Shown one piece after another: positions 7,085-64,000 of a stretch of DNA of 64,000 bases. The stretch is from assembly GCA_030062745.1 (NCBI GenBank), contig CP099841.1, positions 10,231,501-10,295,500 on the forward strand, given 5' to 3'. Position 1 is the first letter of the stretch, and the number at the start of each line of letters is the position of its first letter. The translations under genes were made by a program, and so were the position numbers. The DNA comes from Capitulum mitella (taxonomy: Eukaryota; Arthropoda; Thecostraca; Pollicipedomorpha; Pollicipedidae). A model generated the notes under the pieces. That model was not told the DNA's origin. It did no database searches and was given only the letters and a program-made list of their open reading frames with translations.

Positions 7085-7206
7085 AGTTGAAAGCCCAAAT
7101 AAATTTTTGAGGTCAAGCAGGTTTGTGAAAAAACTGGGCGGAATTCGTTTCGCCTGGTACAGTTTACTATTAACATTACTTCGAATTCCTGTGTTATAGT
7201 CCATCA
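7085..7206 (+). repeat. Interspersed repeat 'G', left part, interrupted by a TTAA element
   Basis: This segment is clearly homologous to 11190-11318; both share 'gtcaagcag', 'aaactgggc', 'ctcgcctg/tcgcctgg' and 'ccatcattaa'. In this copy the TTAA at 7207-7210 is followed by a 1.2-kb insertion, while at 11190-11318 the same TTAA is uninterrupted. After the insertion (8416 on) similarity resumes weakly ('tccatgatttatgtatcc' against 'tccatcatatttgtagcc'). I do not recognise the family. Confidence 0.7.
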
Positions 7207-7210
7207 TTAA

Positions 7211-8411
7211 CCCGCGCACGACCGTCGGTCGGTTACGATCATGCGCGACTGGGGGGGGGGACATTTGGCCGTCCCCCTCTAACTCACGAACGGTTGGTTG
7301 CACGATAAAAATAAGCACACTGTTGGAAAGCTTGTGACGAGTAAAGCTCGAAACTGGTCTCATTTTTTAGTTTTTGATAATATGTAAGCAATGTACGTCC
7401 TATATATGTTTTCTCATAGCCGACTGAATGAGACCGAGAAATGGCCTGAATCTCAAGGGCTGTGACTAATAATGCATAGGTAAAGGCATCAGCGCACAAG
7501 TAAAGGTCCGCAAATGCCGATACACATCTAATTTCTCGGATTTGTTCAATATACGCGCCGAAGCGTTGAGTGAAACACACGGCAATTTTCGCACCGGCTG
7601 TCAGCGTGCGCCTCAGCCATACGCAGTAAGAAATTAACGGGAACTGATTTTAGCGTTCCTTTATTTTTGCGAAAAAGCCTATCCATGTAAATTTTATTGG
7701 TCTTAGTGGTTCTTGTGATGGGTTTTCATGCTTAAATTTCATTAGGTACAGATCTACAAAATTGACGGAGCTTTATTCGCGAGAGCATGTTAATTTCCAA
7801 AATATGCAGTTTTCTAAAACTTTTTGAGGTTCCTGGTATTAGTTACGTCTCCGCAAGCCAGTTCTGCCATTTTCTACACATTCTGAGTAATTTACCGCTG
7901 ATTTTGACGGTGGGACATTTTGGCTCACGACAGTTATTCGTCACCTGACCTCAGGTCAATGGCTGGAGGTCATTGATACTTTGCCCAATGACGGTACTAG
8001 ATGTCTGCTTCACTCCACACTAAAAATGTTATGAAATATTCCGCTCATTTCCGAAAAAACGACGACATGTGTTAAAAATGGGTTTGACCTTAGGTCAGTG
8101 CCCCCGGAAAATTCCAAAAAATCTGAGATAGCAGCTTTGTTGCATCTATCACTATCACTAATCCTGGAAAGTATTATTGTGATATCTTGTTTTGCGAAAA
8201 AGTTACAGAGCGCAAAACTTTTTTAGACAGGTCCGTTTGACCTAACCTAGGTCAGGCACCTGACTTGACCTGAGGTCAAAACTTCTACACAAAACGTAAA
8301 AATGATGAAGAAAAAGGTACACAAAGTTTCGTGACTCTGTGTTTGTTTGTTCTTTCGCAATCCCAGAAAAATCTCAGGGGGGCGGTCAACAGCCCCCCCG
8401 TCGGGGGCGCG
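7211..8411 (+). mobile_element. TTAA-flanked non-autonomous element, family B copy 1 (full length, piggyBac-like)
   Basis: The 1201-bp element is bounded by TTAA at 7207-7210 and 8412-8415. Its left end reads CCCGCGCACGACCG and its right end, read inward, CGCGCCCCCGACG, so the inverted termini are short and imperfect. TTAA duplication is the hallmark of the piggyBac superfamily; assignment to it is inference because no transposase is encoded. G- and C-tract hairpins lie just inside both ends. The interior contains many TGACCT/AGGTCA hexamers. An unoccupied paralogous target at 11310-11318 supports these boundaries. Confidence 0.75.
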
Positions 8412-8474
8412 TTAAGGTGTCGCCGCCATGAAGCTATCCATGATTTATGTATCCTTCTGTAATTTACCTCCCAT

Positions 8475-9847: not shown

Positions 9848-10004
9848 CCTCCCATAATACCTTTTTAAATCATTTTGTGAACTTTAGGCATAAACGCCTG
9901 TCACGACCCCTTCCCCCGATATACAACGTATGGATGTCCCCACATGCGTTTGGGACACCCATAATCACTTTCCAAAAATACCTCCCATGAGGGCAGGTGA
10001 GGTG

Positions 10005-10680
10005 GACCTATGTCCCAAAACGTTGAGCGCCCTGTAACTTTTCGGAAAACATGATGTCACAATAACACCCTCAGGGATTAGAGATCTTGATGAATACAAC
10101 AAATCTGCTATGTTAGATTTTTCCGCATTCTCCGGATCATTCACCTAAGCTCAACCCAGTTTTAAGGACATGTTGTCGTTTTTCCGGAATTTGTCGGGTT
10201 TTTGTAGCATTTTTGGTGTGGAGTAATGCATACATCCATTTACCATCAATGGACAAAGTATCAATGACTTCCAACCATTGCTCTGAGGTCAGGTCACGAA
10301 TAACTGTTATGAGCCAAAATGCACCTCCGTCAAAATGGGCGATGAATTACTAAGAACGGTTAGAAAATGGCAGAACTAGCCCTCGCAGTTGTGAGCAATA
10401 CCAAAAAGTTCAAAAGTCTCAAAATTTGCATATTTTGGAAATAAACAGACTCTGGCGAATAAAGCTCCGCCAACTGTGTGGACTGATAACTTCTAAATTT
10501 TTCCAAAACAGAAGCATCAGAAACCATCACTGGAACGACAAGGATTGAGAAATGTCCCATGGAAAGGCCTATGTAGCAAAAATAAAGAAACTCTCAAAAT
10601 TAGTACTCGTTAATTTCATGTCTCGTTCGGCTCGCCGGCAGTCCGCGCAAAAACTGTCGTGTCTTTTACTCAGCGTTTCG

Positions 10681-10764
<84 letters not shown>

Positions 10765-11138
10765 TACACAGATCAGAGAAATTAGGCGAGTATCGGCATC
10801 TGCGGACTTTTACCTGTTCGGTGGTGCCTTTACCTAGACTTTATTAATAACTGCCCTTGAAATTCAGGCCATTGCGCGGTTTCATGCAGTGCGTGTGGTT
10901 TCATGCAGTGCGTGTGTGTTTCATGCAGCTGTGAAAAAACCATGTATAGGGTCGTAAATGATTTACATATTACCCAAAGCTAAAAATGGGACCACTTGTG
11001 ATCTCTACTGGTCACGAGGTTTCTAACGGCGTGCTTATTTTTATCGTGCGACCAGCCGTTCGTGAGTCAGAGGAGGGAGGGGTCAACCGTCCCCGCCCAG
11101 TTGAGCGTGATCGGCGCCGACTGCTGGTCCTGCGCGGG
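10005..11138 (-). mobile_element. Family B TTAA element, copy 2 (inverted, left-truncated)
   Basis: Read on the minus strand this matches family B copy 1 from its terminus inward; the preserved terminus ends GCGCGGG at 11138, followed by TTAG (a mutated TTAA). The other end is lost near 10005, so only about 1.1 kb remains. A (CA)n(TA)n microsatellite lies inside the copy. It shares the same gene-free interior with scattered AGGTCA half-sites. Confidence 0.7.
10682..10764. repeat. (CA)n followed by (TA)n microsatellite
   Basis: About 14 CA units run directly into about 24 TA units, followed by a short imperfect tail. It lies inside family B copy 2. The open frames rich in Thr-His and Tyr-Ile across it are artefacts. 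Confidence 0.97.
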
Positions 11139-11189
11139 TTAGAACACTTGCGGCTTGTTGTCTGTGGTTCCGATGACGTCACTGCTTGA

Positions 11190-24057: not shown

Positions 24058-27000
24058 AATGTCCTTACATTCTTATAACTATTCACATGACTAAAAAGTA
24101 AATGACTAATTTCCCTCCAAACGGGCTCAACATGAGCGGTGAAGGGAGCGGACACGCAAAGGACAAAGACACAAAAAGGAAAATGGAAATCCTTCATTCG
24201 AAGATTTCCCTCGAGTGTTGTAAAATAAACTTCACTGGAAAATTTGCTCGGATTTTCCGTAAGTCAGAAAGAGCACCATTCATTGCCCAATTTTGGCCAT
24301 CTTCTTGGCGGCCATTCTTGGTTGCCCCCCAGATTCATCTGTGCTGGGAATAGCTCAGAACTGATTCCTTTCATTCTATGGTGGTTTTAATGGCACTGAA
24401 ATAAGTCAAAATCTACTTCTTAACACTGGAATCCCTAAGAAGTGAAAAGATGCCCAAAACAAGTTAAATACAGAATGTCCCAAAAAACATTTGGAAATAA
24501 TTTTTTTGTCCATTGAATCAAGGACATCATATTCCCACACAGCATTTTCAATGCCCTGCATGTTCAACCCACCAGATTTCATAACGATAAGACGTCTCCT
24601 TTCGATTTCATGTCTGCTTTATCACACGTTCTCAATGTTGGACTCAACGGCTCAAACACCCGAGCGTGTTGGAGAAATATTTCACAACGTTCAAGCACTG
24701 AGCAAGGGGGATGGCTCGGATCGCAGGCGTCGCTGTGAAGCACGCTATCGAGCTTGGTTTCTCCCCAGTACACAAAGTTCTTTTTTAGCTGACATGGCCG
24801 CTGTGCAAAAAAATGTGCCTCATCTATGAACCACAGATCGTCAAGAAAGCTTCGCTCCTGCTCGAATTTGTCGGTGATCCACTGAGACATTGTCATCCGT
24901 TTATCTATGTTCTGCGGTCCATTTTTATGAAACACCTAGTTATTTGGTATGGTGCAATTTTAAACCTTTTTTCAGAATGTTAGACAATTCATTGCTGGGC
25001 AACACGAGCTCTTGGTAGCGACGGTGAAGGGATTTTGTTGAGTTCTGTGCGGCTGATGCCGCGACGGCGGCGATGTTGGCTAGAGTTCTTCGAGATCTTA
25101 ATCTTGCTGAGTGAGTAGCCTTGCCCGAGGCTGAAGCGTTCAGGTTGTGCACAGTTCCATGGACTCTGAATTTGTGGACCCAATGACGAATTGATTGTCT
25201 TTTGGAGGCATCGCGTCTTTTAAGACCGAAACGTTGTGCGAACTACAAGTGCGTCTGTGGAACAGGTTTGGTTGTCGCGCATTTTTCAAAACGAAATGCG
25301 TTTTTATCGATTGAGGGCCCCAGCTTGATCAATACATAATTCCGGCATCAACGAACGTTTCGGAACAAAAATATACCATGGCACATGCAGTTCATGTGTA
25401 TTATTATATGAAAAATCACGTGTTTTTCTTTGAAACCACGTCCGTTATTAACGCCATTCCCGGAGGGGTGCACGGTATAGCCGATTCCCGGCGGGGGGGG
25501 ATTCAGCCCCTCTGGAATCTCGAGAACTACACGTCCGATTTCATCGCAACATACAGCAATCGATTTGCCATAACGCAAACCACATTTTTCTGAAAAGGAA
25601 TTCCCAATAATTTGAAAGGGGCGGATACATGGGACAACAATTCCGAAAATTCTGAGAAGGTGGACACAGGGAACAAAAAATCAGAATTAGGGATATTTTT
25701 GGACTTGTTATAGCTTTGTTGTCTATAGGCCGATTTTGATGAAATTGGCAGGAATTGAGAGACTATGACTGGAACTTTTACTGTAGGTCCATACATTTGG
25801 CATTTTGAGCCAATCCATAGTCGCTCACAGGGCTTTGAAAGAAGGAGGATTAGTTTTTCAAATAATGAATTAACAAAAAAGTTAAGGACAATTTTTTTAG
25901 CCTCCACTAGACATGTTATGCTGAAGAGGTACGAATCGTATTACACTGTATAATGTTAGCATAGGCGGTATCGGTACCATGAAAAAGGGGGAACTGTCAT
26001 GGTCAGATGCTCTTCAGGTCAACTTACAACCTTACATGACCTCACGTGACCTCCAGTGACCTTAAGGTTGCTTAGAATGGTCTTGAATGCATTTCATATT
26101 TTCTGAAAACGTTTCCAATCATTTGAATTCACTCTGCTTCTAAAATTCAGTTTCACAGCCGTTGTGATATAGGGTATGCGCACTGACATTATAGGTCATA
26201 GCTTCGTGACCCAACGTGATATCAACCTGAAACTTGATACACGAGAAGAGGACACCCTTTCACGTCATTTACGTTCCTGGTTTGGCATTAAGAAAAGTAG
26301 CGGTAAAACTATGATTTTGACCAAAACCAAATTTTGATTTTGACCTTGCTTTGACCTTGTGAAGTGACCTCAGATTAACAAACGTATATTTTTATGCTTG
26401 CCCAACTATTTTCCTATGCATCCAAATCAAGTTTTGAGTTCCATCTCAAAAACGGTATCTTTGGCAGCCATTTTCCTTTCACCCTCAACAGGGCCAAAAA
26501 TGGACTAAGGTACTCCCCAAGAACGCTGCCTGGTTCCGCCCCTAAGCAAAATAAAATTTCGTTACAGTGCAAATAAAAAATAGGTAGGAAGGACGGAGTT
26601 TAGTGAAGCTACGTCAAAAACCCTGCAATTGGCAAGCAAAAAACCCGAGTGGGGGGATTCAGCCATCCCTGCCGGGAATAGGTTTAGGAAAACTGTCAGT
26701 TTTTTGGCGGGACACCCTGTATATGGATCAAGTCTAAACCCGCACGGCAGTGAGGAAACTTCAGAGCTGAGTCAAGCCTTGCTAGTAAAAGGACAAATAC
26801 ACAACAAATGTAACAACACAAGATAGAAAAAAATGCCCAGGAGCCTGGGTTACAACGTAACTGTCACACATCAGACCTCGTCGGCACTCACCCTTCATTA
26901 CGAAATCCTGGCTGCACTTCTGTTGTACAACTGTGACTGCCATTACTCATTCAACTTGAACTTCGAACAATGCACCTCCATAGCCGCACTAACCTTTTAC

Positions 27001-29637: not shown

Positions 29638-32600
29638 TTATTATTATTATTTTACTATTATTTTTCTTATTGGCGCTTAACCCTATTCCCGGAGGGCTAG
29701 ACGGTATGGCCGATTCCCGGCAGGGGGGGCGGATTCGGCCCCCCCCTGAGATCTCGAGAACTACTTATCCGATTTCATCGCAACAAACGGCAATCGATTT
29801 GCCGTGACGTGAACTACATTTTTATAAAATAAATTTTCAAAATTTTGAAATTTGTGGATACAGGGGGGCAAAAATGTCAAAATGGGGGGGGGTACTTTTT
29901 GACTTCTTATAACTCCGTTGTTTATGGACCGATTTCGATGAAACTGGCATGAATCGAGAGATTATAGATAGGGCTTTTACCATGGGTATGCAAATTTGAA
30001 ATTTGGAGAAAATTCATGGGCGTTCACAGGGTTTCAAAAATAGGGGGATTAGTTTTCTAATAACGGAATGAACAAAAGAGGCCAAAACACTTTTTTAGCT
30101 TCTGCTAGTCATGTTATGCTAAAGAAGTACAAATCGCATTACAATGTTTGTATAATGTTAGCATAGGCGGTGCCAGGGACATAAAAAAGGGGGAACTGTC
30201 ATGGTCACACGTTCTTCAGATCAACTTGTGACCTTTGACCTTAAATGACCTCCAGTGACCTTGGGGTCACCTGGAATGATGTCGTGTGCACTCAATATTA
30301 TCTGTAAGCCTTTTTAATCCATTAAATTCACTCTATTCCAAAAAATTCATTTTTTGGCTTTTGCGATATAGGGTACGAGCAATGACATTTTAGGTCATAG
30401 CTCCGTGACCCGACCTGATATCAAGCTGAAACTTGGTACACAAGTAGAGGGCATCTTTCTACGTGATATATATTCCGGGTTTGGCATTTGAAAAAACAGC
30501 GCCGAAATTATTGCGAAAAAACAAATTTTGACTTTTGACCTTGACCTGACCTTGTAAAGTGACCTCAGATAAACATAATTACATATGCACATTGACCAAC
30601 TATTTAGCTATACATTCATGTAAAGTTTTAAGTTCTATCTTAAAAACTCTGTTTTGGGCAGACATTTTCCTTTTACCCTCAACATGGCCAAAAATGACGT
30701 GAGGTGCCTCCCAAAAACGTTGCCTGGCTCCGCCCCTGAGCAAAATAGAATTTCGAAATTTTGTCACGGCGCGTAGAAGGAATAGCTAGGAAAAGTCACC
30801 AAGTTTTGTGAAGCTGCGTTAAAAAGCCTGGAATTGGCAAGCAAAAAACCCGAGGGGGGGCGGATTCCGCCCCCCCTGCCGGGAATAGGGTTAACTCTAT
30901 TCCAGGAGGGCTAGCGGTATGGCCGATTCCCGGCAGGGGGAGGCGGATTCGGTCCCCAGTCGAGAACTACTCGTCCGATTCCATCGTAACAAACGGCAAT
31001 CGATTTGCCATGACGTAAACTACACTATTATAAAAAGAAGTTCTCAAAGTTCTAAAAAGAGTGGATATAGGAGGCAAAAAGCCAAATTGGAGATATTTTT
31101 CGACTTCTTATAACTCCCTTGTAACTGGACGGATTTTGATGAAATTGGCATGAATCGAGAGGCTATAGATGGGACTTTTACAATTGATCCATACTTTTGA
31201 AATTTTGAGCAGATTCATAGGCGTTCACGGATTTCAAAAATAGGAGGATTAATTTTCCAACAGCTGAATGAACAAAAAAAGGCAAAAGCACTTTTTTTGC
31301 TTCTGGTAGTCATGTTATGCTAAAGAAGTACAAATCGTATTACAATGTTTTTCTAATGTTAGCATAGGCGGTGCCAGGGAGATGAAAAAGGGGAACTGTC
31401 ATGGTCACATGTTCTTCAGATCACGTCTTGAACTTTGGCCTTAAATGACCTCCAATGATCTTGGAGTCACTTGGAATGATCTCGTGTGCCTTTAATATTA
31501 TCTTTAAACGTTTTCAGTCATTTGAATTCACTCTATTTTAAAACTTCCATTTTACGACTATTGTGATATAAGGTACGCACACTGACGTTTTAGGTCATAG
31601 CTCCGTGATCTGACCTAAAATCAGGCTGAAACTTGGCGCACAGGTAGAGGACACCAATCTACGTCATATGTATTCCGGGCTTGGCATTTCAAAAGACAGC
31701 GCCGAAGTTATTACTATAAAACAAAATTTCGACTTTTGATGTTGACCTGACCTTGTAAAGACCTCAGATGAACAAAATTGCATTTACACGTTGCCCAACT
31801 ATTTAGCTATACATCCATATAAAGTCCTAAGTTGTATATGAAAAATGTTGATTTTGCAGTCATTTTCCTTTTACCCTAAACAGAACCAAACATGACCAAA
31901 CATGACCAAAAACGTTGCCTGACTCCGCCCGTGGGCAAAACAAAATTTCAGAATTCAGTTACAGTACGTAGAAAGAATGGCTAGGAAAGCCAAGAAGTTT
32001 CGCGAAGCTGCATCAAAAAGCTTGGAACTGGCAAACAAAAAACCCGAGGCGGGAGGATTCAGCCCCCTGCCGGGAATAGTGTTAAGGACGCGCCAACTTC
32101 ATGGCCCTCATATGGTAATATCGTATCAATATATGATAATGATTTTAATCATAGATAAAAACAAAACAACAAATGAAAGGTCATATCGACTACAATTGCA
32201 ACCCGGCTACAGGCTGCATCTACTACGATGTAAAACATATCCTTTTGTACATAACGTCCCAAAATACTTCAAATGAGTGGATGGAATAAAAGATAAATTT
32301 GGTTTGCCGTCATCAGTCGTGGCACCGTAAAATGTTATAAGTTCAAATGTTATAACTTACCGTAAAAAGTAAGCTCAGCTTATAAAGCTTATAAGCTGAA
32401 CTTACTAAACTTTCGGATTTGCCGTCACCAGTCGTGGCACCGTAAAATGTTACAAGTTCAGATGTTAGAACTTACCGTAAAAAGTAAGTTCAGCTTATAA
32501 AGCTGATATGTTATATGTTATATGTTATAAAGCTCATAAGCTGAACTTACTAAACTTTCGGACTGCCTGTAGGCAGTTCGAAAATCATGTTAACGCCATG

Positions 32601-35600
32601 AACATTCTTCACGACAAACATTTCGCAAGATTGTACCAGATACATGTTTTGTTATAAACTTAACTGAATCAACAGAAAGGTAATACAGCGCCGAAAGGTA
32701 TAGGCGACATTTCAGAAGGTCAGGCACTGCTTTAAGGGCGTCACATTTGGTGTTCGTGGCACGGTTGCTTGACGCAGTCTCGGAAAGCACAGACGGTCAG
32801 GAAAACGACGCTGTTTGGCAGCCGCGTCGTGCCGTTTGGGTCGTGATGCTGGCACGCTCACTTGGATGTTGGTTTTTGAGAGCAGTAGACTGTTTCGTCG
32901 GACAAATCACGGTATTTCTGCCGTGCCAGAGTGACAGAGAGGCGTCAGAGATGACTCTGGACGATGGTGGAGTGGGTGGGTAGAGATGTAGAACGGTGGT
33001 GGAGTGGGTGGGTGGACTCTGGACGATGGTGGAGTGGGTGGGTAGAGATGCAGATGGTGAGTCTTCCACGGAGGAGGACTAGGATGGTGAAGATGGTGAT
33101 GACCAGGACGGGACTGGGGTAGTCATTCGTCCTGTTTCCGCTGCTGCCGAATTTCAAGTGCCTTACGAAAAGGTCGCAGATGCTGCTACGGCTGTACCAC
33201 AGAAGCCAAAATTCGGGAAACGGCGAACTAGCCTGAAATATTCTGGATGGGAGAAGATGTCCAAATGACAAACAGATACGGCGAGCGACTTCGAACTGGT
33301 ATGGAAGCCACACATCAGTGGGACTGTACAAATACATTTTCGGTTAGAGGCTTATTCAGCACATCAGCAGTGAACCTATGAAGTAAGGCACCCGCACCAC
33401 GAACGGTCCCTACGTCAGCTTCGAGCCGGGTGAAGAGATCTGATAGATACAACAGGTCTCCTATCTCGGGTTTTTTTCGGAGTTTTGCGGGGCATTGACC
33501 GAAGGTCAGCCCCATTTTTAGGACATGTCGTTGTTTGTCCGGAATCTGACGGCACTTTTTATGACATTTTTGTTATGGGGTAATGCAGACATCCATTTGC
33601 CGTCAGTAAACAAAGTATCAATAAGTTCCAGCCATTGACCTGAGGTCAGGTCACAAATAAGTGTTTTGAGCTAAAATGCAACGCCGTCAAAATTGACGAT
33701 GGATTGCTCAGAACGGCTTGAAAATGGCAAAACTGGCTCGCACAGTTACGAGTAATAACAAGAAGTTCAAAAAGTTAGAAGAATTGTGTATTTTGGAAAT
33801 AAACAGACTTGCACATAAAGCTCCACCAATTGCGTAACTGATAACTAATGAGTTTTTCCAAAATTGAAACATGACAAACCATTACAAGAACCACGGGGAT
33901 AAAGAAATATTACATGAAAATGCCTATGTCGCGAAAATAAAGGAACACTAAAATTAGTTCCCGTTAATTTCATACCGCGCCCACCGGCGGTCGGCACGAA
34001 AATGGCCCTGTCTTCCATTGAACGTTTTGCCGTTTATATTAAAGAAACCAGAGAATTGGATTTAGGTAATATACAATACAAAAATAGGCGTGTATCGGCA
34101 TCTGCGGACTTTTACATGTTCATTTGTACCTTTACCTAGACTTTATTAATCACAGGTCTTGAGGTCCAGGCCGTTTCTCGGCTTCATGCAGCCAGCTGTG
34201 AGCAAACATAAGTAGGGCGTAAATGGCTTATATGTTACCCAAAACTAAAAACGGGACAATTTCAAACTCTACTTGTCACGAGCTCTCCAACGGCGTGCTT
34301 ATTTTTATCCTGTGACTAGCCTTTCGTGTGTTAGAGGGGGCCGTCAACGGCCCCCCAGCCGGGCGTGATCGACGCCGACTGTCAGTCGGGCGCGGGCTAA
34401 AACTGAACATGCGCGTAAGCACAGGAAAAAAATTTCCTGTTGTGCGAACTGCACATAAACAAATGTATCATTCCGCGACTTTTTGTACAAATACAGGTCG
34501 TCATAGTCATATGTATGTACTTAGACACAGTATGTATGTACGCAGGCAAAAATGGTATAACTATGACTTCAAAGCAACAGCCTTATCTGATAACGGATAT
34601 TAGCTCGTGTGTCAGCCTTCCGGTGCATTAAAAGAGCAGAAAAACAACGGCTTGTCTTCCCGAGTGGTCCTGTCCGGAGCGTTGGCGGAACGCTGCCGAG
34701 CGAGTCAGTTAGGATGGGGAGGAGGGTGGGGGTGGATGCTGGGGACGAGGTGTCTGTTTCTGGTCGAGTCTGCTTCTCGGACACGTGTAGAGAATTTTAA
34801 CATGTCTTTGGTATGCGATTTATACGCATATATTATCATGTCTACCATATGTACAAAAACAAAGAGGAAACTACGAAAAGTAGTCCTTATTGGCTAAGCA
34901 CAATCGATGCTTGTGTGCCTTTTCATCGTTTCAACTCGTTTTAAATAGAGAAAAAATTAAAATGTTCATAAATACTGGAGCAGACGTAAAAATGCAGCTC
35001 CATGTGGCTATAGCCCGTGTGAAAAAGTAACAAAAGGGACATGAGAGAAGAGTGAAGTATTCCAATTTGCTGCAGTGGCCGGCAACATTTAACCTGGCAC
35101 CGCCTGGGGATGTCAAATAGTGCACCCCCCTCTATTTTTCGTGACTAACGTCTGAACCATTAGAGCCGGCCCAACCAAACTTTCAGTACCTCTTAATCAA
35201 TCAATTCTACATATTTCGACATCAAAATCATTTCCATTCCAGGTCAGATTATGGAGATGTGGCGTCATACGCGAACCCTTGCATGCATGTTTTCGCTTCT
35301 TCGTGCGGTGGCGCTGACATGCTTCGTTTTTTTTGACAATATTCGCGAATATAATGCATGGATTATTTAGATTTACACAAGACACAACACCCCAAAAGAT
35401 ATAAAACCGTGGCACGTCAATATTAGAGGTTATGGTAGATCGCATGCATGATGACAGTTGAACTTATTTGCACTGTGGGTGATAGAAGTGGTTGCCGCTG
35501 ACCTTTGCCATAGTTCAAGCCAGACAAGCAAATCGATATGCGACTCTTAGCAAAGTTCACCAAATGCGACGTAAGGTCATGTCAGGACATGTCATAGGTT

Positions 35601-38600
35601 GATTTCAAAAGGAAACAAGATACAATATTGTCTGTGGAAGATCGTTCAGTAGCAGAAAAAAACAATTAATGTTCCTAGGCAGAACGTGAAGAATGACTAT
35701 CTGTCCTTACTTGGCTTAACGTTGACCCAATAAGGAGCACACAGAGCAGACTTAATTTTCGCGAGATGTCGTTTAGTTCTGTACTTGGCGCAATTAGGAA
35801 TCCCAGCGAGTAATAAGACCTTATCTGACCCTACCTAGAATGACCTTGACCGGATGGAGAGCAAGTAATAAAAAAACTGATCATCAGAAGACTTCACTTT
35901 CGTCTTTTGTTGTGGCGTAGGTCAAAACGGCAGCGAGTAAGTATTGATCTTTGGAATGTAAAGTAAGACCAACATTTAACTTGACCTAGGCTAACCTTGG
36001 CCTGACATTTTCCTAATATTTTGGAATGCTTCTGATGCATACGACTGTGATGTTTCGTTTGATACCCAGTTGAAGGTGCTAAGACCAGTATTGCTGATGA
36101 TATGATGCACGAACCAGTATCACTTTTTCGACGTCGTGTCACGCGTTTTACGTTACCTGTTACGTCACCAGTCACGTGACCAGGGCTAACATAGTATTTT
36201 CTGGATCGCAAGACTCTCGGTTATCGATTGGTAGTAGACCGGTTCAGATCTGACGGTAAAGTCTCGAAATAACAGGGGAACACCATTTTTGACACCCCTA
36301 GGCAGTCGCGGGGACAAAAGCACGCCAGGCGGTGCCGGGGTAAATTGTTTCGTAGGCTGTTTTACACTAACAGGGATATGTTGCATGTCATATCGATTTA
36401 TGCTTCTTTGAATAACGTGGACTAAGTTTTGACAGAAATGGACATTTCCTGCAGTGTTCATTGCGTCTCCTAAAAGCATCCTCGTTTGTCTTTGATCGAA
36501 TTGGTTGTCTCTACTCCATTCAGATCTACCACACAAAATGCAAAGTCTTTTCGAGTCAAGCTGCATTTTATTTCAAGGTTCTTTTCTGTTTGCCTCCCCT
36601 TCCCTTCACCAAGAGCTCCCTAACTTTGATTTATCGGTACTTGTGAAGGTTTTCGTGGATTGCGGTAAGCCCTTACGGCACTCCTGAAATGAAGCAAGAA
36701 GACGCAGCAGCCCGAACCGTGGTGAGAAATGATGTGATATTGTGGAATTGCTGTTGCGGTTGATAACGATATTCGAACCTTTTCCAGATGATTTAGTCGT
36801 CAATGGATCTTGCTCCGTAACGTTCGACGAGGCTGGCAAGGCGCTGGTAGATGATGTTGAAATTAACATTTCGTTGGGAAATGTTGAACTTAAGGTAGAA
36901 GGCGCCGGATTCATTGGTAAGTAGAATAGTTGCCACATGTAAAAACAACTCATTTAATTACGCCTGTTTTTTATATCGACTGGCATGCTACTGATTTTTG
37001 TCGCTGCTAATAATTACGTTCAGTCGGTGCCTTTTTCGTAGCACCGTTAGTATCGCCATCTGCAACGTTATCGGAAACCGTCATTTACTGTTACATGTTT
37101 TGACCCTTGCTAGTGCAAGAGGTTGGTGCAAAACCCCTGAGGCTTTTCGCAAGCTGACTGCTTACTCCCGTTTCGATCGCCATGAAATTTTGTGTAGCCC
37201 ATTTGCAAACATTTTTATGACTTCCCTAAAAACGTAAGACCAATAGTTCAACAGGTTACGGACCAGTTCCCTTATTCTTGGAGAGATGCCATGGAGAAAT
37301 TATTACACGGCGACGGTCTCAATGGCATAGCCAACGCTAGAAGCATTTTACGATACGTAGTCTTACTCAGTCTTAGACATGAGTTTCCCCTATGGAATCA
37401 GTGACCTCAGCACTTGGGTCCTCACTTGAGTCAAGGTCATCCTATCAAGATAATGAATTGGGATCACTGACCTTTCTGACATTTCATTGACCTCGGACGG
37501 GTCACTAACCATTCAGAAACTCTCATTTGCATTGTAGCAGTAACTTTGGTCTTCCTTCATTGTCAGACGTCACTCAGGGTAGCTCTGGTCGCTTTGGGTC
37601 ACAGACGTCACTCTGGTCATCACTTTGGGTCTATCAAAACACCCGATAGGTTGCGTTGCATAAAATTCAATGGAAACCATAATTCATTGACAGAACGTCC
37701 TTTGAGGTTGCCTGTAAGGTCACCTTGTGATTTAAAATGGTCAGAATGGAAATCACAATTTAGCCAAAGGACCAGGCCACACGCTTGTCTTCATTTCGTT
37801 ACTCTGGCACGTCAGGTTTGAAGATGGTTGGGGTCTAACCGACCATCCCCTCCTGTACTGTCTAAGGCGGCCAAATGACAAAAAAAGACGAGGGCTTTAA
37901 GTTACTGCTGTTTGCCAGTAGCTTAGCCAGAGGGGGTTCAAAGAGGTCAGTTGACCTCCATGAAAACCTTTGGCTTAATTGTCAAGGGTTTCCAAAAATG
38001 GCTGTTGTCATAGGTGAATTGTTTACAAGACAAAAGTCTTCTAAAACTAAAAAGTAATTTACTTTATTTTCAGAATCTCTAGGCACGTGCCATCAGATAG
38101 GACCATTTTCGCCATGTTTGAAGTAATAATGGGAAGAGTACAGTATCAAACCTTTTCATTTTAGCCTTGGCCCCTTTACAAAAATTTTGGCTACGCTGAT
38201 GCTGCTTGCCCTTAGACCTCGCTACCTAACGGTTAACCCTTGGATTACGAAGTCGGATTATCCCGAGCTATCGCATGAGAGGAGTGAACCCATTCGTGCA
38301 ACAGCCTGGGATAATCCAACCCTCGTGCGATAGCCACCTTATGTAATGTCAATAAAATAAACCTGAAGGAGATATCAGGTCCGACATGGGAGCATATTTT
38401 CACGCCACTTAGTCTCTAAGAAGAAGCTCCCTTATCCCTTTTGGAGAAACGTTGGGCGATGGTCGGAATTTAGGCTACAGCAGCTGTTGTGCTGTCGCTT
38501 CTCAGGGTGCCACGACTCCAGCCTCAGCCTGGTGCGTCATGCGCTACTGAGGAACGGAGGGGAAGAAGGGACATGGAAATGAACTGTTCCTCTCTGAGCG

Positions 38601-41094: not shown

Positions 41095-42341
41095 TTTTTA
41101 ACGCAGCTTTACGAAACGTGGTGACTTTTCCCTGCAGCTGTTCTTTCTACGTGCCGTGACAAAATTTCCCTTATTCCGACAATTCCAGGCTTTTTAACGC
41201 AGTTTCACGAAATATGGTGACTTTTCCCAGCTATTCTTTTTACGTGCCGTGACAAAATCTCAAAATTCTATTTTGCTCAGGGGCAAAACCAGACAACGTT
41301 TTTAGGAGGCACCTCAGACCATTTTTGGCCATGTTGAGGGGAAAAGGAAAATGACTGCCAAAAACAGCGTTTTGAGATAGAACTAAAAACTTTATATGGA
41401 TGAATAGCTAAATAGCTGGGAAATGTGATAGAGCAGATATAATTTTGTTTATTTGAGGTCACTTTACAAGGTCAGGTCAAGGTCAAAAGTCAAAATTTGG
41501 TTTTACTGCAATAATTTCGGCGCTGCTTTTTCCAGTGCCTAACCCAGAATATACATGACACAGAAAGGTGTTCTCTACTTGTGTATCAAGTTTCAGCTTG
41601 ATATCAGGTCGGGTCATGGAGCTATGACCTGAAATATCAGTGCGCATACCCTATATGGCAGTAACCATAAAATGAAATTTTTGAAATAGAGTAAATTCAA
41701 ATGATTGAAAACGTTTACAGATAACATTAAATGCACACAAAATCATTCCAAGTGACCCCAGGGTCCCTGGAGGTCATTTAAGGTCAAAGGTCACAAGTTG
41801 ATCTGAAGAACGTGTGACCATGACAGAATCCCCCTTTGTCATGTCCCTGGCAGCGCCTATGCTAACATTTTACAAACACTGTAATGCGATTTGTACTTCT
41901 TTAACATAACATGTCTAACAGAAGCCAAAAAAGTGTTTTTGCGTTTTTTGTTCATTCATTTGTTGGAAAACTAATCCTCCTATTTTTGAAACACTGTGAA
42001 CGCCCATGAATTTTCTCAAAACTTCAGATGTGTGTATCAATGGTAAAAGTCCTATCCATAATCTCTCTCGATTCATGCCAGCTTCCTCGAAATCGGTCCA
42101 TAAACAACGGAGTTATAAGAAGCCCAAAATACCCCTGATTTTGACATTTTTGCCTCCCTGTATTCACACCTTTCAAAATTTTGAAAATTTCTTTTTATAA
42201 AAATGTAGTTCATGTCATGGCAAATCGATTGCCGTTTGTTGCAATGAAATTGGATGTGCAGTTCTCGAGATCTCAAGGGGGGGGCGAATCCGCCCCCGCT
42301 GCCGGGAATCGACCATACCGTCTAGCCCTCCGGGAATAGGG
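41095..42341 (-). mobile_element. Family A TTAA element, copy A4 (inverted, damaged end)
   Basis: The outer end at 42341 reads, on the minus strand, CCCTATTCCCGGAGGG and is bordered by TTAG. The inner end is damaged: about 75 bp ('ctttttaacgcag..gtgccgtgacaaaat') appear twice, at 41092 and 41189. The terminal block is shortened to 'cccttattccgacaattcc'. It retains a perfect DR1 AGGTCAAAGGTCA at 41782-41794 and a TCAAGGTCA-type site near 41470-41480. Confidence 0.85.
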
Positions 42342-42345
42342 TTAG

Positions 42346-43959: not shown

Positions 43960-44756
43960 ACTAGGGGGGCCCCATGGCCAGGGGGTGCTTTTGTATAAGT
44001 GATTTGGGGGATCCAATGAGCCCTCGAGAGGAATTCAATGAGAGTCCCTCAGATTTTAGGGATTCATTTGGATTCATTTTAAGGGCCCTTAGAGTTTTTT
44101 GTGGGCTCTCGATCTTTTCAGGGGGTTGTTGATATTTTCAAATGGACCTCAAGCATTTCCTCGCACGTTATATCCTTTCCTGAGTGTTTGAGGTGCCATC
44201 GGAAAATATGACAGCCCCTTTAAATGAATTCAAGGATTGCTTTTCAAGGAATCTGAAGGAATTTTATTCCAAGGGGACTCTTCGGACCTTAGGGAGGGAC
44301 CCCCTTGAACTAATTTAAAGGGCATTTTGGAGTTTTGTTGGCCCTCAAGCGTTTTGACAGGCCCCTTGATATTCCCGGAGGTCCTCTCAAACAAAGCCTT
44401 GTTTGGTTCAAAACTCGCGTTCTGAACGTTCAGAGCCTCCCAAAAATCTGAGGGTGTCGCGAAAAAATTAATGAGTCCTCGAGATGAATTCAAGAAGGAA
44501 CTCTCAGGCCTAGGAGAGGGTCGTTCCTTCAGTTTACCGAAAGGGCCCAAGGGAGTTTTTCTGAACCCCTCGAGCTTTTGAGAGAGCCCTTGGTATTGTC
44601 AGAGCGCCTCTCAAACATTTTCTCAGGGCCCCTCGACCATTTCCTCGTTGATTCAAAAATCCTCTTCTGGTTGTTTGAGGGGCCCCTAAGAATGTTTGAG
44701 AAGGTCCCCTGAGACCGGAGGAGGGCCTACTGGATTCCCGTAGAGGATCCCCTTAA
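43960..44756 (+). repeat. Degenerate 20-22 bp array
   Basis: Units such as 'ggccctcaagcgttttgacag', 'gccccttgatattcccggagg' and 'gaacccctcgagcttttgagag' follow each other at 20-22 bp spacing. The core is GGNCCCTNGANNNTTTT. The array resumes after the inserted element at 46002-46100. Confidence 0.65.
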
Positions 44757-45997
44757 CCCTATTCCGGAGGGCTAGACGGTATGGTCGATTCCCGGCAGCG
44801 GGGCGGATTCCCCCCCCCCCGAGATCTCGAGAACTACACATCTGATTTCATTGCAATAAACGGCAATCGATTGGCCATGACGTGAACTACATTTTTAGAA
44901 AAAAAATTTAAAATTTTGAAAGGTGTGGCTACAGGGGGCAAAAATGTCAAAATCAAAGGGTATTTTTGGACTTCTTATAACTCCGATGTTTATGGACCAA
45001 TTCCAAAGAAACTGGCATGAATCGAAAGATTATGGATAGGATTTTTACCATTGGTACACACATCTGAAATTTTGAGAAAATTCATGGGCGTTCACAGTGT
45101 TTCAAAAATAGGAGGATTAGTTTTTTAACAACTGAATGAACAAAAAAGGCAAAAACACTATTTGGCTTCTGTTAGTCATGTTATGCCAAAGAATGTTTGG
45201 CATAACATGACTAACATAAGATAACATAACATAACATAACATGGCATTACAGTGTTTGTATAATGTTAGCATAGGCGCTGCCGGGGACATGAAAAATGGG
45301 GAACTGTTATGATCACACGTTCTTCAGATCAACTTGTGGCCTTTGACCTTAAATAACCTCCAGTGACCTTGGAGTCACTTGGAGTCACTCGTGTGCATTT
45401 AATGTTATCTGTAAACGTTTTCAATCATTTGAATTCACTCTATTTCAAAAATTTCATTTTATGGCTATTGCGATATAGGGTAGGCGCACCGACATTTTAG
45501 GTCATAGCTCCATGACTCGACCTGATATCAAGCTGAAACGTGATACACAAGTAGAGGGCACCGTTCTACGTCATATATATTCCGGGTTTGGCATTTGAAA
45601 AACAGCACAAAAAAGTATTGCAAAAAAACAAATTTTGACTTTTGACCTTGACCTGACCTTGTATAGTGACCTCAGACGAACAAATTTATATCTGCACATT
45701 GCTCGACTATTTAGCTATTCATACATATAAAGTTTTAAGTTCTACCTTAAAAACGCTGTTTTTGGCAGTCATTTTCCTTTTCCCCTCAACATGGCCAAAA
45801 TGGCCTGAGGTGCCTCCTAAAAACGTTGCCTGGCTCTGCCTCTGAGGAAAATAGAATTTTGAAATTTTGTCACGGCACGTAGAAAGAATAGCTAGGAAAA
45901 GTTACCAAGCTTTCGTAAAGCTGCGTCAAAAAGCCTGGAATTTGCAAGCAAAAAACCCGAGGTGGGGGCGAATTCAGCCCCCCTGCCGGGAATAGGG
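44757..45997 (+). mobile_element. Family A TTAA element, copy A5 (clean insertion)
   Basis: The 1241-bp copy starts CCCTATTCCGGAGGG and ends CCGGGAATAGGG, flanked by TTAA at 44753-44756 and 45998-46001. A copy-specific hairpin at about 45178-45212 (catgttatgccaaa and its complement around 'gaatg') is followed by (ATAAC)n. Removing the element with one TTAA restores the surrounding 21-bp array. Confidence 0.9.
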
Positions 45998-46769
45998 TTA
46001 AATTCATTTAGAGGGTCCATTGAAGCATGCTGTGGGGCCCTGAAGCTTTTGAGGGTGCCCTCACTATTTTTAGACAACCCTCAAGCTTTCAGGAAAGGAT
46101 TTCCTTAACCAGACGAGGAAATCATTCTGCAGCTTAAATTTTCATACTGAATAGTGCCGCAGTTCGAAAAAGTTGCAAAATGTTTCATCAGATTGAAATG
46201 TCACTTCAACCTTAGGTCCAGCATAGCACCGTGGGCCCCACGTCAACAATAAGGTTGTCGAAACCATCACGGGAGGCTGAAATCAACACTGAGGGGAGCG
46301 TCCCCTCAAAAGAATACGAAATGAAGTCCATTCCCATGATGGCTAGAGCACTAAGTTCACTTGGTAAGAACCTGCTTTCTTTTGCATATTAGCCATGCTT
46401 TCTGTTGAGAAAGCAGGCCTGGATCATTTACATGCACTGCCCTGGTCACTGGGACTTAATTAACGGCAGAGTTCCCACTTTTTCGGGATCTAAATGGTCA
46501 GGCAGTGTGCCAGGCGCCTACCTTCCTACATTTCTATTGAACTGATTTGATGATCGCCTAGCTACGTCACTGCGGTGTCCGACACTGTCATCTGGCAGCC
46601 ATTCCGGGGCAGAGATACCTCTCCTGCCAGGAGCTGCCTTTGCTTAACCAGATTCCTGACCTTTCCAGGTCAGTGAACATTGGGGCCCTTTGGGACATGC
46701 GGGGACCGGCCTAGGGGATTCCTTTCTCACGCCAAGAATTTCTAGATCTGGGATGATAAGACCCCTAAG

Positions 46770-47345: not shown

Positions 47346-47521
47346 AGGGCCCTTAAGACCCCTGGCTACTCTACCGTGCAGAGATATATCAATCCCCACC
47401 AGCACATAGCAATCCGTACCGTGTCTTGAGATTTCACCTCCAGATGGCAGTGAAGATGCGGGATCCGACTGTCGGGGGCCGTGTGCGCCTGCCACACTGT
47501 GTTCAGCGACGCAGCGGTGCG

Positions 47522-47742
47522 ATGACGTCCGAGTCGCTGCCCGTGATCGACCTGAGAGAGGCCGGCGGGCCGGGTCGGGCCGAGCTGGCCAGCCGGCTCA
47601 ACCACGCCCTCAGCACCACCGGCTTCTTCTACGCGGAGGGCATCGACGGCTACGACGAGGAGGAGTTGATGAAGTACACCAGGTGGTGAGTGTGGCAGTG
47701 TGAAGGAGACGATGAGGTTCAACGAAGCGGTGAGTGTAGTTT

Positions 47743-47791
<49 letters not shown>

Positions 47792-54600: not shown

Positions 54601-57600
54601 TTCGCAGGAGAACGCAAGCTATAAGGCACTTTTTCTAAAAGTTGTGCTGCGATGCTGCAACTGCAGTGCTGCAATGCATGCCGACCAATGAGTGGATGTG
54701 TTTCGTGCGCCGTAAGAGGGAGGAGAGGACTGGCTTCCCATTCAGTGGCGTAGTGGCCAGGTTCCGAACAACTTGACCGACACTGCCGTGCGCTGCGCAG
54801 CGTTCTTGGTTGGCCGAGAGGTATTATCGTGTAACATGAAATGGGTGATGCGGAACCGCGAGTTCGCGTCCATGGATAGCTATTTTGTTTCTTTCTTCTC
54901 CATTTCTGAGCACATGGACTACGTGGGAACATTGGGACACAGATTTTGTGCTTCATACTGGAAACACACGGGAATACATGCGTTTCACAGCGCGATGATA
55001 TCAAGCGACTGGAAATGGCCTATCAGGTACAGTGATGTCAACCCTGGGGAAGGCAAAAAGCACGCCCTAATCTAAACCAGCATAGTCAGCGATATCTTTA
55101 AGAGGTCATTAAACGACATTTAGGCTTCGTCGGGGGAAACGGAGTTCTGATTCCTAGCAAGCGGTAGAAAATATTAAATTCATGTCGTGCGTAATGTTCG
55201 TAAAGTTAAAAATGCTGGACGCACCAGAAATCTTTCTTGGCATTACCTTTACTTGTAATTATGCTTAATACACAACTTGTATTTATGTTTTTGACTCGCA
55301 GAGAGACTCGCAGAAGACTCCAGTGGAGGGCCCCTGAAAAATGCACGCAATGGAGGAGTGGAGGGAAATTCCCCGCCCCCCCCCCCCACACACTCCACCC
55401 TCCCCCCCCCCCCACCCCACCTCAGAAACCAGCCAGTGCCACGAAACTTTCATGGCCAGTGGAGGGCTGTGGGCAAATACCTTTGTCCAAATGTTGTGAT
55501 CCTTGGGCAACACCTTCGAGTTTAGATCGTGTGAAATGTTCAAAATTTCGTCGATTTGAGAACTTTTGAGACTTCTTCCTGGATAACTGCCGTAGTTGAT
55601 CAAAAGTATGCCAAAATCGAACTTTTCCGTATTTCAAGGGCGATCCACGATGGCCAGCAACCGGAACACGGCATTTGACTTCACATCCCTCGTGCGTCGT
55701 TTCATATCGCCGTTAATAAAGCTTGGCGAGGAGGGGGCGATCAACTGGTTTTGTCTCTCTGCGACTGACATTACGAGGCCATGTCTCCAAAAATGTTGAT
55801 GTAATTTTCTGCTTTTTGCCACACTGGATATCAATTTAAAGTGTGCAAAAATAGGCAATCCGCCACAGAAATGAGGTCCAGGTCGGGGCCGGACTTTACC
55901 ACGTCCAATGGATTCCGGCCGCAGATTTCCAGCATGAAGCCCTTTCAGAATCAAGTCTCATTTTAGGCATACCTCTGTAAAAACATTTTGCACTGTCGAT
56001 ATTCCAAAGAATGACCAATATTTTACACTATGCCCAATAACGCTACATCAAACGAAACATTTTTGTCACACTTAACCACCTCCTTCCCTCGATCTCCGGT
56101 CAGCAAAAATAATTTAACCCCTGCCCTCCTCCCCGTTATGAAACGCTGCTACGCCTCTGCGTTCATGCCATATACCACTACCGTATGGTTATCTCACGAC
56201 AGAACATGGTCACCCGTCTCATTCGTTTCGTTGAAATGATGCATATGCAAAGGTATGCATATCATGAACCACTGGTAATCTGCGCAAACAGTTCAAACTT
56301 AGCCGAAGTTAAACAACAGCTGCAGTTATGTAAAGGCATCCAGTAGAAGACATCGGTGACATGAGTGAATCCGGGTAAGTGGTGTCAAAAATTGTGCGCT
56401 GGTCATCGCAGGCTCATTGGACCGGGAACGGATAACTGACCTACCATTTGCTTTTTCTGTACATATTATCTTGACGCCACTGGAAATGTCTGATACGGGT
56501 AGGAATATATTCATATACACATATATATGAATATATATGCTTTCCAACATTCACAGCACTAATGCCTACGCTTGTTTAACCCTCGCCAGGCGGGAGAGGA
56601 TTTCCACTTGCACCAATGACAAGGAGGGGGCACCCCTCGCCATTTCGCCCCTAATTAAGCTAGCGTCCTGGGACAAAAAGAAAACGATAGCCGTATACCC
56701 AAGAATTTCAATGGTGTTCGTGTCGACCCCGTCAGTTCAGCCAGTTACCCCCTAGGTCAGGCCAAACTTTATGCTTGAGAACTATAAATTGATTTTCATC
56801 AGTTAAAAACAACACATTTGGGGCTAAGTAAGCCTCTTCCCGTCAAAAAAGAAAAAATGCATAGGAATGTTCTAGGGCCAACAAAAGTTACCCAAGGTCA
56901 CTGAATTCATTTGACCCTGAAAAGGCAACTGGGCTATCTAAATTACCTGCTCTCATGTGGACTACCATTCTGAACCGATTTCGTGCCTGTCATCTACCGT
57001 TTATGCACGTCTATTGCCCTAAAACAGCCAAAAAGCCGACATTTGGCGCAAACACTGCTCGTCAAGTTTTCAGTAATGGCTTCATTGCTCAGTGCCCTCA
57101 GACAAGATGGGGTAACTCTTTTTCAAAACATGCGCAATGAATGCGTCGTCAACTATGCCAAATTTTACGGCGCTGTCGCGCGCCATTTTGCCTTGGTCCC
57201 GGAAACGACGCAGGGGTGGCATCCACCCTTCCTCGTCCGGAGTGGGGTTAAACTCATATCATTGCGAATTAATAACATTCCAAACTGTACCCAGCCCATC
57301 ATTGGGGGAGCTCAACATTGGAAGGACGGCTGAACATCGCGGGATGTCGCCCTCCCCTCACCCAAAAGATACAAAGTTTCGATTTAGGTAATGTGCGTGC
57401 ATGTGTGCCAAAATATGTTTGGGCAAGCTAAGTTCTCACATGTAAATAAACGCAATATTCGTCCGTTTAACGTCGTATCATTACCATTAATCTGCCCTGG
57501 TAATGGCATTCACCATATAATTATCATAACGGATTCTTCTGTACATGGTATGAACTGTTCATTCGTGTGTAAGTTATTTCCAACGCTATTGTTCAGAAAT

Positions 57601-61439: not shown

Positions 61440-62069
61440 CAGCTCAGTAAAGTACTTATCCATTTGCCCTTGTAGTATCGTTTCAATGCCTGTATTAAAG
61501 AAGCTGTTGTTTAAAAGAATTTGCGAGTTGAAGTGCACGCACGTGTCACAGAAGCCCGAGTGATGCTGCTCTTATAATGAACAGGACACTTCCTGACTGC
61601 ATTTGAGCACCGTCCGTTGTCTGTCGTCTTTCAGTGAACCGTTGTCTCAAAATTTTGTCCGTGTCCGTTAACAGAGATGCTATAGAAAGAAACGACATTG
61701 CCCACACTTAACACATACGTAAATTTTAAGCTCGATTCGTCTCGGAATGTTTGCCTCAGTCGTTGCAGGTGGTCCGCGCCGTTTACGTCAACAAAAACGT
61801 CATCAGCGTATCTTAAGTACATATAAGGTCTAAGCTTGTTGTTCTTTAGTATTTCCTCTTCCATATGTCCCATGAAGAAATTTGCAAAGAGGGGCTCGAG
61901 AGCAGAGCCGATTGGAATTCCATCTTATTTGGCAGTAGAGCTGCCCATGTGGCTCACGGAATGACACTTTCTTTGTGCATGAACCTAGAAGATGCTTTAG
62001 GAGAAGCTCGAGAGTTTTGGGGGTGGGAGGCATTTCAGTGGACACAGTTGGAATAACGGAGACAGACAC
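61440..62069 (-). pseudogene. Penelope-like element reverse transcriptase remnant
   Basis: Minus-strand pieces in three adjoining frames match Penelope-like RT in order. 'SFREPHGQLYCQI' corresponds to the F-x-FNG-x-x-Y-x-Q block. DGIPIGSALEPLFANFFMGH is RT motif B. 'RPYMYLRYADDVFVDV' is motif C with an intact YADD. 'LKFTY' follows, then H-stop-KTTDNGRCSN..CPVHYKSSITRAS for the K-P-T-D..CP-x-x-YK block. A frameshift near 61940 and an in-frame stop near 61631 show it is dead. No GIY-YIG nuclease could be placed with confidence downstream. Confidence 0.8.
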
Positions 62070-62708: not shown

Positions 62709-62712
62709 TTAA

Positions 62713-63902
62713 CCCTATTTCCGGAGGGCTAATCGGAATACATGATTCCCGGCGGATTCGCCCCCTCCCCCCCGAGATCTCAAAAACTACACATCCGATT
62801 TCATCGCAACAAACGGCAATCAATTTGCCATAACGTAAACTACATTTTCATAGAAAGAAGTTTTTAAAATTTCGAAAAGGGGTGGACACAGGGGCAAAAA
62901 AGCTAAAATGGGGGATATTTTTGGACTTGCTATAGCTCTTGTTTATGCACCGATTTTGATGAAGTTGGCATGATTCAAAAGATTATGGATTGGACTTTTA
63001 CCATAGGTCTATATATTTGAAATTTTGAGAAAATTCATAGGCGTTCATAGGGTTTCAAAAACAGGAGGACTAGTTTTTAAAAAGCTGAATTTAAAAAAAA
63101 GTTAAAAACACGTTTTTTAGCTTCTAATAGTCATGTTATGCTGGAAAACTACAAATGTTTATATAATGTTAGCATAGGCGGTACCAGGGACATGAAAAGC
63201 AGGGATTTTCATGGTCACATGTCCTTCAGGTCATCGTACGAGCCTATGACCTTAAGTGACCTCCAGTAACCTTAGAGTCACTTGGAATGACCTTGTGTGC
63301 ATTTTATATTATTTTAAAACGTTTCCAACCATTTGAATTTACTCTATTTCAAAAATTTCATTTTACGGCTGTTGCGATATAGGGCACGCGCAATGACATT
63401 TTAGATCATAGCTCCGTGACCTGACCTGATATCAGTCTGAAACTTGGTACACAAGTAGAGGGCACCATTCTACGTCATATGTGTTCCGGGTTTGGCATTT
63501 GAAGAAGATGGCACCAAAATTATTACTATAAAACCAGATTTTGACATTTGACCTTGACCTGACCTTTTTAAAGTGACCTCAGACAGACAAAATTGCATGT
63601 TTTATGTGCCCGGATATTTACCCATACGTCATGGAAAAGTTTTGAGTTCTATTTTAAAAACGCCATTTTTGGCAGACACTTCCCTTTTATCCTGAACAGG
63701 GCCAAAAGTGGCCTGAGGTGCCTCCCAAAAACGTTACCTGGTTCCACCCCTGAGAAAAAAGAATTACGAAATTTTGTAAAAACACTTAGAAGGAGTAGCT
63801 AGGAAGAGTGACCAAGTTTCGTGAAGCTGCGTCAAACGTCCTCGAATTGGCAAGCAAAAAACCAGAAGGGGGAGGAGTCGGTTCCCCCTGCCGAGAATAG
63901 GG
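62713..63902 (+). mobile_element. Family A TTAA element, copy A6
   Basis: The 1190-bp copy starts CCCTATTTCCGGAGGG after TTAA (62709-62712) and ends GCCGAGAATAGGG before CTAA. It aligns along its length with the other family A copies and keeps the TGACCTTGACCTGACCT run near 63549-63566. Confidence 0.85.
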
Positions 63903-64000
63903 CTAAGACGCTTTGATAGTTTGTAGGTAGGGGATAAACTTTTCGAGTTTTAACTTTTGTATAAGCATAACCCAGCGAATAGTCACATTTTTCTTGCAGT

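Follow-up and report, generated by a model that had tools for sequence, protein, structure and literature searches.

Clusters of the nuclear-receptor half-site AGGTCA in several apparently dissimilar families of non-autonomous TTAA elements of the barnacle Capitulum mitella

The window considered here (C3:10231501-10295500) is a 64-kb stretch of the 477-Mb genome of Capitulum mitella, which is assembled in 16 contigs. It contains 119 copies of the hexamer AGGTCA, against 28.9 (sd 5.2) expected from dinucleotide shuffles, confirming the richness in this word that a first-pass annotation of this DNA had noticed. AGGTCA and its complement, TGACCT, are hereafter called half-sites. The repeated elements that carry them in the window, together with three features inside these elements, are as follows.

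25448..26687, plus strand: A1, an old TTAA element with 8 half-sites and TTAG at its right end (from alignment, counts and ends)
29677..30894, plus strand: A2, a young TTAA element that differs by 1.6% from the consensus of young copies, with 9 half-sites
30229..30241, minus strand: perfect DR1, AGGTCAAAGGTCA, in A2
30536..30552, plus strand: TGACCTTGACCTGACCT cluster in A2, with half-sites adjacent as well as overlapping
30891..32085, plus strand: A3, an older element that has its TTAA in common with A2, with 5 half-sites
41098..42345, minus strand: A4, with 8 half-sites; its 5' end is CTAA and its 3' end is rearranged, so that the low coordinate is approximate
41781..41793, plus strand: perfect DR1 in A4
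44753..46001, plus strand: A5, with 7 half-sites
62709..63906, plus strand: A6, with 10 half-sites and CTAA at its right end
7204..8415, minus strand: B1, a TTAA element in which TGACCTNAGGTCA forms palindromes; its low coordinate is approximate (7128-8415 was used for counting and 7161-8415 for the genome search)
9990..11160, plus strand: B2, a decayed B copy with 2 half-sites; ends approximate
33434..34420, plus strand: B3, a decayed B copy with 4 half-sites; ends approximate
35089..36343, plus strand: copy of a third family, C, TTAACCTGGCACCGCC...GGCGGTGCCGGGGTAA, with 6 half-sites (searched as 35037-36290)
56576..57020, plus strand: E, the start of a further repeat with TTAACCCTCGCCAGGCGGG and 2 half-sites; its other end was not found

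Copies of family A start with TTAACCCTATTCCCGG and end with CCGGGAATAGGGTTAA, are about 1.2 kb long, and resemble MITEs. Their half-site counts, for which only 0.4-0.6 would be expected per copy, were reached in 0/1000 shuffles of any copy, and in the six-copy alignment the half-sites fall at homologous internal positions, in agreement with the claim that all six share many such hexamers at conserved places. That these copies are TTAA elements was borne out at both ends of A2, A3, and A5, but one end is altered in each of the other three (TTAG in A1 and A4, CTAA in A6, read on the window strand), and the other end of A4 is rearranged. No listed open frame of at least 130 amino acids overlaps A1-A6 or B1-B3, i.e. 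these copies are without a transposase gene. Exact half-sites of family A form direct, inverted, or everted pairs with spacings of -1, 0, 1, 4, and 7. The perfect DR1 described for A2 is exactly where it was said to be, whereas that of A4 lies one base to the left of its reported place; TGACCTTGACCTGACC, attributed to A2, A4, A5, and A6, is present in all four (at 30536, 41470, 45643, and 63549). When hexamers were ranked in five single copies, AGGTCA came first in A1, A2, and A6 and second in B1 and B3. A2 and A3 are arranged head to tail with a single TTAA in common at 30891-30894, the former young and the latter old, which looks like insertion of one copy at a target site already occupied by another, and a similar pair is found at C14:3889349-3891780.

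B1, B2, and B3 contain 9, 2, and 4 half-sites, respectively. The counts of B1 and B3 were reached in 0/1000 shuffles, and the text at 8255-8280 reads as described, so the richness ascribed to this family holds for these two copies but not for B2, whose sites were reached in 76/1000 shuffles. The B palindromes are everted with a spacing of 1 and thus differ from IR1, which is the arrangement of the classical ecdysone element. Among 11 B copies fetched from 42 matches, the termini are CCCGCCCCCGAC on the left and CCCGCGCACGAC on the right, and TTAA is present on most. Family C is a third TTAA family with termini CCCGGCACCGCC and its complement; 12 of 43 matches outside the window were fetched, and in 7 of these 12, as trimmed, the left end is TTAACC, the right ends lying outside the fetched stretches. 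GGGTTAA right ends of C were seen in L037 and L045. The 16-copy C consensus starts with some 28 flanking bases and lacks its 3' end, which is outside the fetched stretches. Family D contains units of about 150 bp in tandem, with 72% likeness in L027 and 79% in L030, and E starts with TTAACCCTCGCCAGG.

The exact 5' end of A (its first 20 letters) occurs 6,115 times in the genome, against 0 for the reversed control. Thirty of the 43 best A matches were fetched; all 30 contain 9-12 half-sites, and 29 have TTAA on both sides, the exception (L047) having ATAA at the left. After removal of L018, which is A2 itself, the 29 remaining young copies differ from their own consensus by only 0.7-1.6%, so that the family has moved recently. 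Ten of 48 matches to A1-like copies were also fetched, and two short A pieces (L019:1-207 and L052:9639-10000) were excluded from the 12- and 22-copy A sets. In small samples, A accounts for 2.9 kb both of the 50 kb covered by five random 10-kb stretches and of 86 kb of flanks of A copies. The inverted ends of A (CCCTATTCCCGG at both termini) start with CCC. TTAA target duplication, terminal inverted repeats that start with CCC, and the lack of a transposase gene are traits of piggyBac-type MITEs, and all were found here. RNA structure was rejected as a cause of the repeats: when the A consensus was folded in 120-base windows, the lowest z was -2.7, and windows over the clusters ranged from -2.05 to 2.43. 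Also rejected, as non-significant, was the idea that A duplicated a larger module internally. Positions 228-280 and 713-770 of the A consensus do resemble one another (ATAxCTCCG...GACC-GAT-TC-A--TGAAAC-TGG, p 0.068), but invertebrate repeats often contain phrases of this kind.

What is enriched is AGGTCA in its exact form. The consensus sequences of A, B, and C and one D locus contain it 10, 11, 15, and 10 times, respectively, within 1.1-1.26 kb, for a total of 46; of the 18 one-base variants counted over the same four, the commonest, ACGTCA, occurs 10 times and GGGTCA 6 times. With a 4-copy C consensus, the figures are 43 for AGGTCA and at most 6 for any single-base variant. A 200-kb sample, made up of the window, the five random stretches, and the A-copy flanks, yielded 28 de novo repeat groups. 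Half-sites per kb amount to 6.0 in A, 5.5 in B, 5.4 in C, 5.6 in E, and 15.9 and 10.3 in D; 21 of the other 22 groups have 0-1.0, and the last, of 248 bp, contains just one site (4.0 per kb). Outside A and B, where C, D, and E were left unmasked, AGGTCA is doubled (167 against 83.5). The overlapping words AAGGTC and GGTCAA are not doubled outside A and B, unlike AGGTCA. With half-sites randomised, no similarity was found between A and C, A and D, B and C, B and D, or C and D (z -0.7 to 1.5; 12 shuffles). A and B in reverse orientation gave a z of 4.3 in the same 12-shuffle test, in which comparisons with an autonomous element reached 3.3 (for A) and -3.3. The AGGTCA-rich families are thus apparently without clear similarity to each other, and several families of one genome show a real and unusual convergence on this word.

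Besides the word itself, the families have its spacing in common. Half-site clusters are located at 565, 715, 869, and 1018 in A (steps of 150, 154, and 149), at 159, 326, and 469 in B (steps of 167 and 143), and at 184, 372, 439, 519, 652, 800, 952, and 1118 in C (steps of 188, 67, 80, 133, 148, 152, and 166). The best joint period of A, B, and C is 152, a period that was noticed before it was tested, and in 0/4000 randomised arrangements was any period from 60 to 300 as strong. Taken singly, over all periods, p was 0.046 for A, 0.135 for C, and 0.39 for B, while D is irregular; an earlier run with an older C consensus plus D gave 0.021 over all periods. The interiors are self-similar at lags of about 140-160 even when half-sites are randomised (z is 3.3-3.8 for A, 2.2-2.8 for B, 6.0-7.2 for C, and 8.5-12.7 for two loci of D, while two autonomous elements do not exceed 0.9), and therefore probably grew from units of about 150 bp.

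A profile search for the piggyBac transposase (PF13843; 116 of 267 candidates scored) gave 118 genome matches. Eight of these loci (L065-L072) were read, and their proteins belong to one family, 90-98% alike where aligned. Five autonomous elements with clear ends, flanked by TTAA and 2.9 kb long, contain 0, 1, 2, 1, and 0 half-sites (0-0.7 per kb), and the remaining three loci 5, 1, and 1 in 4.1 kb each. The richness is thus not a property of every TTAA transposon of this genome. None of the eight loci read has the ends of A, B, or C; seven have ends like CCCATTAACGCCCAG, and L069 has no visible ends. Kolobok elements form another group that uses TTAA.

Since families A, B, C, and D carry some ten or more half-sites each in consensus or locus, thousands of receptor-type sites are scattered through the genome. 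The DR1 word TGACCTTTGACCT occurs 7,332 times (3707+3625), compared with 26+29 for the reversed word; ER1 (TGACCTNAGGTCA) occurs 14,445 times, compared with 41; and IR1 (AGGTCANTGACCT) 3,219 times, compared with 46. Among the first 100 DR1 words examined, 59 lie inside A elements, 527-564 bases from an exact A end. Conversely, typing covered 96 of the 100 A ends listed; 95 of the 96 were typed within the compared stretch, and 59 of these 95 have DR1. The 70- to 350-fold excess over reversed controls is an effect of copy number; it is no proof of selection, because an abundant element multiplies every 13-mer in it likewise. Receptors exist in this genome, as there are 49 exon matches to the nuclear-receptor DNA-binding domain (zf-C4). 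FTZ-F1, ERR, and RXR are established binders of AGGTCA-type sites. DR1 is bound by HNF4 (PMC3252374). Proteins of these four types may be the readers of the barnacle-element sites. The suggestion that repeated insertion would spread ready-made response elements is partly supported: the perfect words number thousands and receptors that may read them exist, but no protection of half-sites is visible once they are inserted.

That last point rests on retention and substitution tests, which excluded CpG positions, the substitution tests also excluding homopolymers and outer bases; at most 29 A, 17 B, and 16 C copies were used in tests of selection. Consensus hexamers in A were retained at 0.74 versus 0.51 elsewhere in 6 copies and at 0.69 versus 0.48 in 12 (p 0.0004-0.0017). 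In B the values were 0.63 versus 0.51 in 6 copies (p 0.04-0.06) and 0.74 versus 0.64 in 17 (p 0.005-0.012). C gave no sign of constraint (0.31 versus 0.42 in 4 copies; 0.505 versus 0.492 in 16, p 0.38). The expectation that half-sites would be better conserved than flanking bases was thus met in part by A and B but not by C. A pairwise contrast of hexamers intact in another copy (A, six copies, 0.65 versus 0.28; A, twelve copies, 0.60 versus 0.28; B, 0.73 versus 0.43; C, 0.35 versus 0.18) was set aside as biased, because half-sites picked by their letters are mostly unmutated while random words are not; of this contrast, just the ranks of recurrent words are used below.

Changes found in one copy (private) arose after insertion, and those found in two or more (shared) were passed on. 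The ratio of private substitutions at half-sites to those elsewhere is 0.97 in 22 A copies, 0.93 in 11 A1-like copies, 0.81 in 17 B copies, 1.05 in 16 C copies, and 1.36 in the 29 young A copies. Between 13 and 78% of shifted controls were as low, and no family is clearly below 1. Decay at the same rate as the rest of the element, together with the lack of any chromatin or receptor signal, had been named in the first-pass annotation as evidence against its own reading; as to the first half of this, half-sites after insertion decay as fast as elsewhere in A and C and not clearly slower in B. As private rates at half-sites are about those elsewhere, no protection by the host is visible. For shared variants, the column ratios of the same five sets are 0.64, 0.58, 0.64, 0.97, and 0.45 (Fisher p 0.07, 0.20, 0.15, 0.90, and 0.72). 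Twelve A copies have 2 shared variants over 51 half-site columns versus 181 over 834 (ratio 0.18, p 0.001), whereas 22 copies have them in 12/51 versus 290/784 columns (shift test 0.028), so that the deficit weakens with more copies, from p 0.001 to 0.07. In B, 9/63 versus 180/803 columns is non-significant, and in the main subfamily (14 copies) the deficit is gone (ratio 1.09); C has 26/84 versus 275/861 and no constraint. Young A copies show a significant deficit when counted by copies (2/1682 versus 109/23867, p 0.034), though not by columns (1/58 versus 31/805). Constraint among propagating lineages would, on these figures, be suggestive in A, weak in B, and absent in C.

What is observed, then, is the presence of the half-sites, their exactness, their occurrence in several apparently dissimilar families, their spacing and abundance, and no visible protection after insertion. 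We tentatively favor, at somewhat less than even odds, the reading that a host protein which binds AGGTCA docks at the clusters and that these serve the element itself. The elements are DNA transposons of the non-autonomous, TTAA-inserting kind, with piggyBac-like CCC ends and insertion site. An exact AGGTCA cluster recurs in their non-coding interior about once per 152 bp, which would amount to one docking cluster per nucleosome-sized step. The candidate reader would be a host protein of the FTZ-F1, ERR, HNF4, or RXR type, and the benefit to the element might be open chromatin in cells where the transposase acts. The host genome would then carry its scatter of DR1, ER1, and IR1 pairs as a by-product that the host does not maintain. 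Docking is given most weight since apparently dissimilar families agree in one exact word and in a joint spacing, which are rare in the other sampled repeats and in the autonomous elements read.

Nearly as likely is that the interiors are neutral relics, old tandem arrays of units of about 150 bp in which AGGTCA was present by chance, multiplied, and was copied by transposition, being read by nothing. The tandem units of D, interiors that remain self-similar with half-sites randomised when the two autonomous elements do not, and post-insertion decay that is not visibly slowed all speak for such an origin, and C, without any constraint, fits it better than docking. It leaves unexplained, however, why the same exact hexamer should recur in several families with one-base variants rare. 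The units of A, moreover, could not be aligned above chance inside or outside the clusters, in a test that is weak (permissive gap scheme, high null), and AGGTCA is preserved best or second best among recurrent hexamers in A and B (ranks 1 of 48, 2 of 39, and 1 of 27), though it ranks only 11 of 25 in C.

A bolder form of the docking reading is that independent TTAA families converged on a cis code of one exact AGGTCA cluster per ~152 bp, through which a host nuclear receptor phases or opens chromatin and so promotes mobility, the receptor landscape of a whole genome being rewritten by parasites. We regard it as rather unlikely.

Rather less probable still is a role for AGGTCA as a site for the element's own transposase or for a transposition cofactor, with no nuclear receptor involved. 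Transposase sites typically consist of short words repeated exactly, A has moved recently, and the first half-sites of B and C lie ~140-150 bases from an end; against this, those of A are not subterminal (in the consensus they begin ~550 bases in from the 5' end and stop ~200 bases short of the 3' end), the ends differ between families while the hexamer is the same, and AGGTCA is sparse in the piggyBac family of L065-L072, a putative partner. Least probable is exaptation, the strong form of the annotation's reading, in which copies are kept because nearby genes use them as hormone response elements: the consensus DR1, ER1, and IR1 pairs, which number thousands, and the Alu precedent (PMC1785376 and PMC3252374) would suit it, but private ratios of 0.81-1.36 show no protection, averages to which a small exapted minority would be invisible, and the window has no match to juvenile-hormone-binding-protein-like (JHBP) genes. 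The annotation had placed several copies in introns of such a gene; this was not borne out, the Pfam profile (PF06585) giving 0 matches in the window interval and 17 genome-wide (24/24 candidates scored), although a divergent gene with short exons could escape.

The nearest precedent is that of Alu elements, which contain AGGTCA-type direct repeats (DR2 and DR1) to which receptor binding was shown for some copies (Laperriere et al. 2007, PMC1785376; Bolotin et al. 2011, PMC3252374). Both Alu and the TTAA families are abundant non-autonomous repeats that spread such direct repeats. Alu, however, is a SINE, and its consensus DR2s are described there as arising largely from CpG decay of a near-miss motif, whereas in A the half-sites are already in the young consensus. 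The present elements are TTAA DNA transposons of several families, with at least 10 exact half-sites per consensus and a joint spacing of ~152 bp. piggyBac-type MITEs such as those of corals and Pokey of Daphnia have the same TTAA flanks, short inverted ends starting with CCC, no long frame, and high copy number; to our knowledge, neither half-site clusters nor a ~150-bp interior period is known in them. Internal tandem or satellite units are known from some MITEs and from other transposons, and these have in common with the present families an interior of repeated units, here of about 150 bp, which is clear in D and statistical in C; here, by contrast, each unit bears a cluster of one exact hexamer as its mark, and in A and B the units can scarcely be aligned. 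No MITE with arrays of nuclear-receptor half-sites was found among the titles and abstract beginnings listed for the open-access literature, subscription journals being mostly outside that scope.

Spread of transcription-factor sites by transposons is usually described family by family, while several apparently dissimilar families here have one exact word and a common spacing. A general and testable question is whether transposons that code for nothing become more mobile by evolving sites at which host factors dock, and the young A copies, at about 1% from consensus, are suited to tests of binding, accessibility, and transposition. The targets of host receptors may be strongly biased by these elements.

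No known RNA family reached its gathering threshold in the window, and A2 had no match among phage records; pattern scans of viral contigs, which gave 15 and 2 stretches, were set aside since short exact words say little there. A long transposase frame with Pfam DDE_1 and Psq HTH domains is located at 17903-19861 on the minus strand, with a PHD-like cysteine-rich tail, recognized by eye, in an overlapping frame (17913-18353), and a related piece occurs in a random stretch (L052:7287-8239). Also by eye, frames at 47400-49530 resemble exons of a 2-oxoglutarate/Fe(II) oxygenase of the isopenicillin-N-synthase-like type, a minus-strand frame at 58334-58675 resembles an exon of an ELOVL fatty-acid elongase, and another at 61634-61924 (minus strand) resembles a fragment of a Penelope-like reverse transcriptase with a YADD motif.
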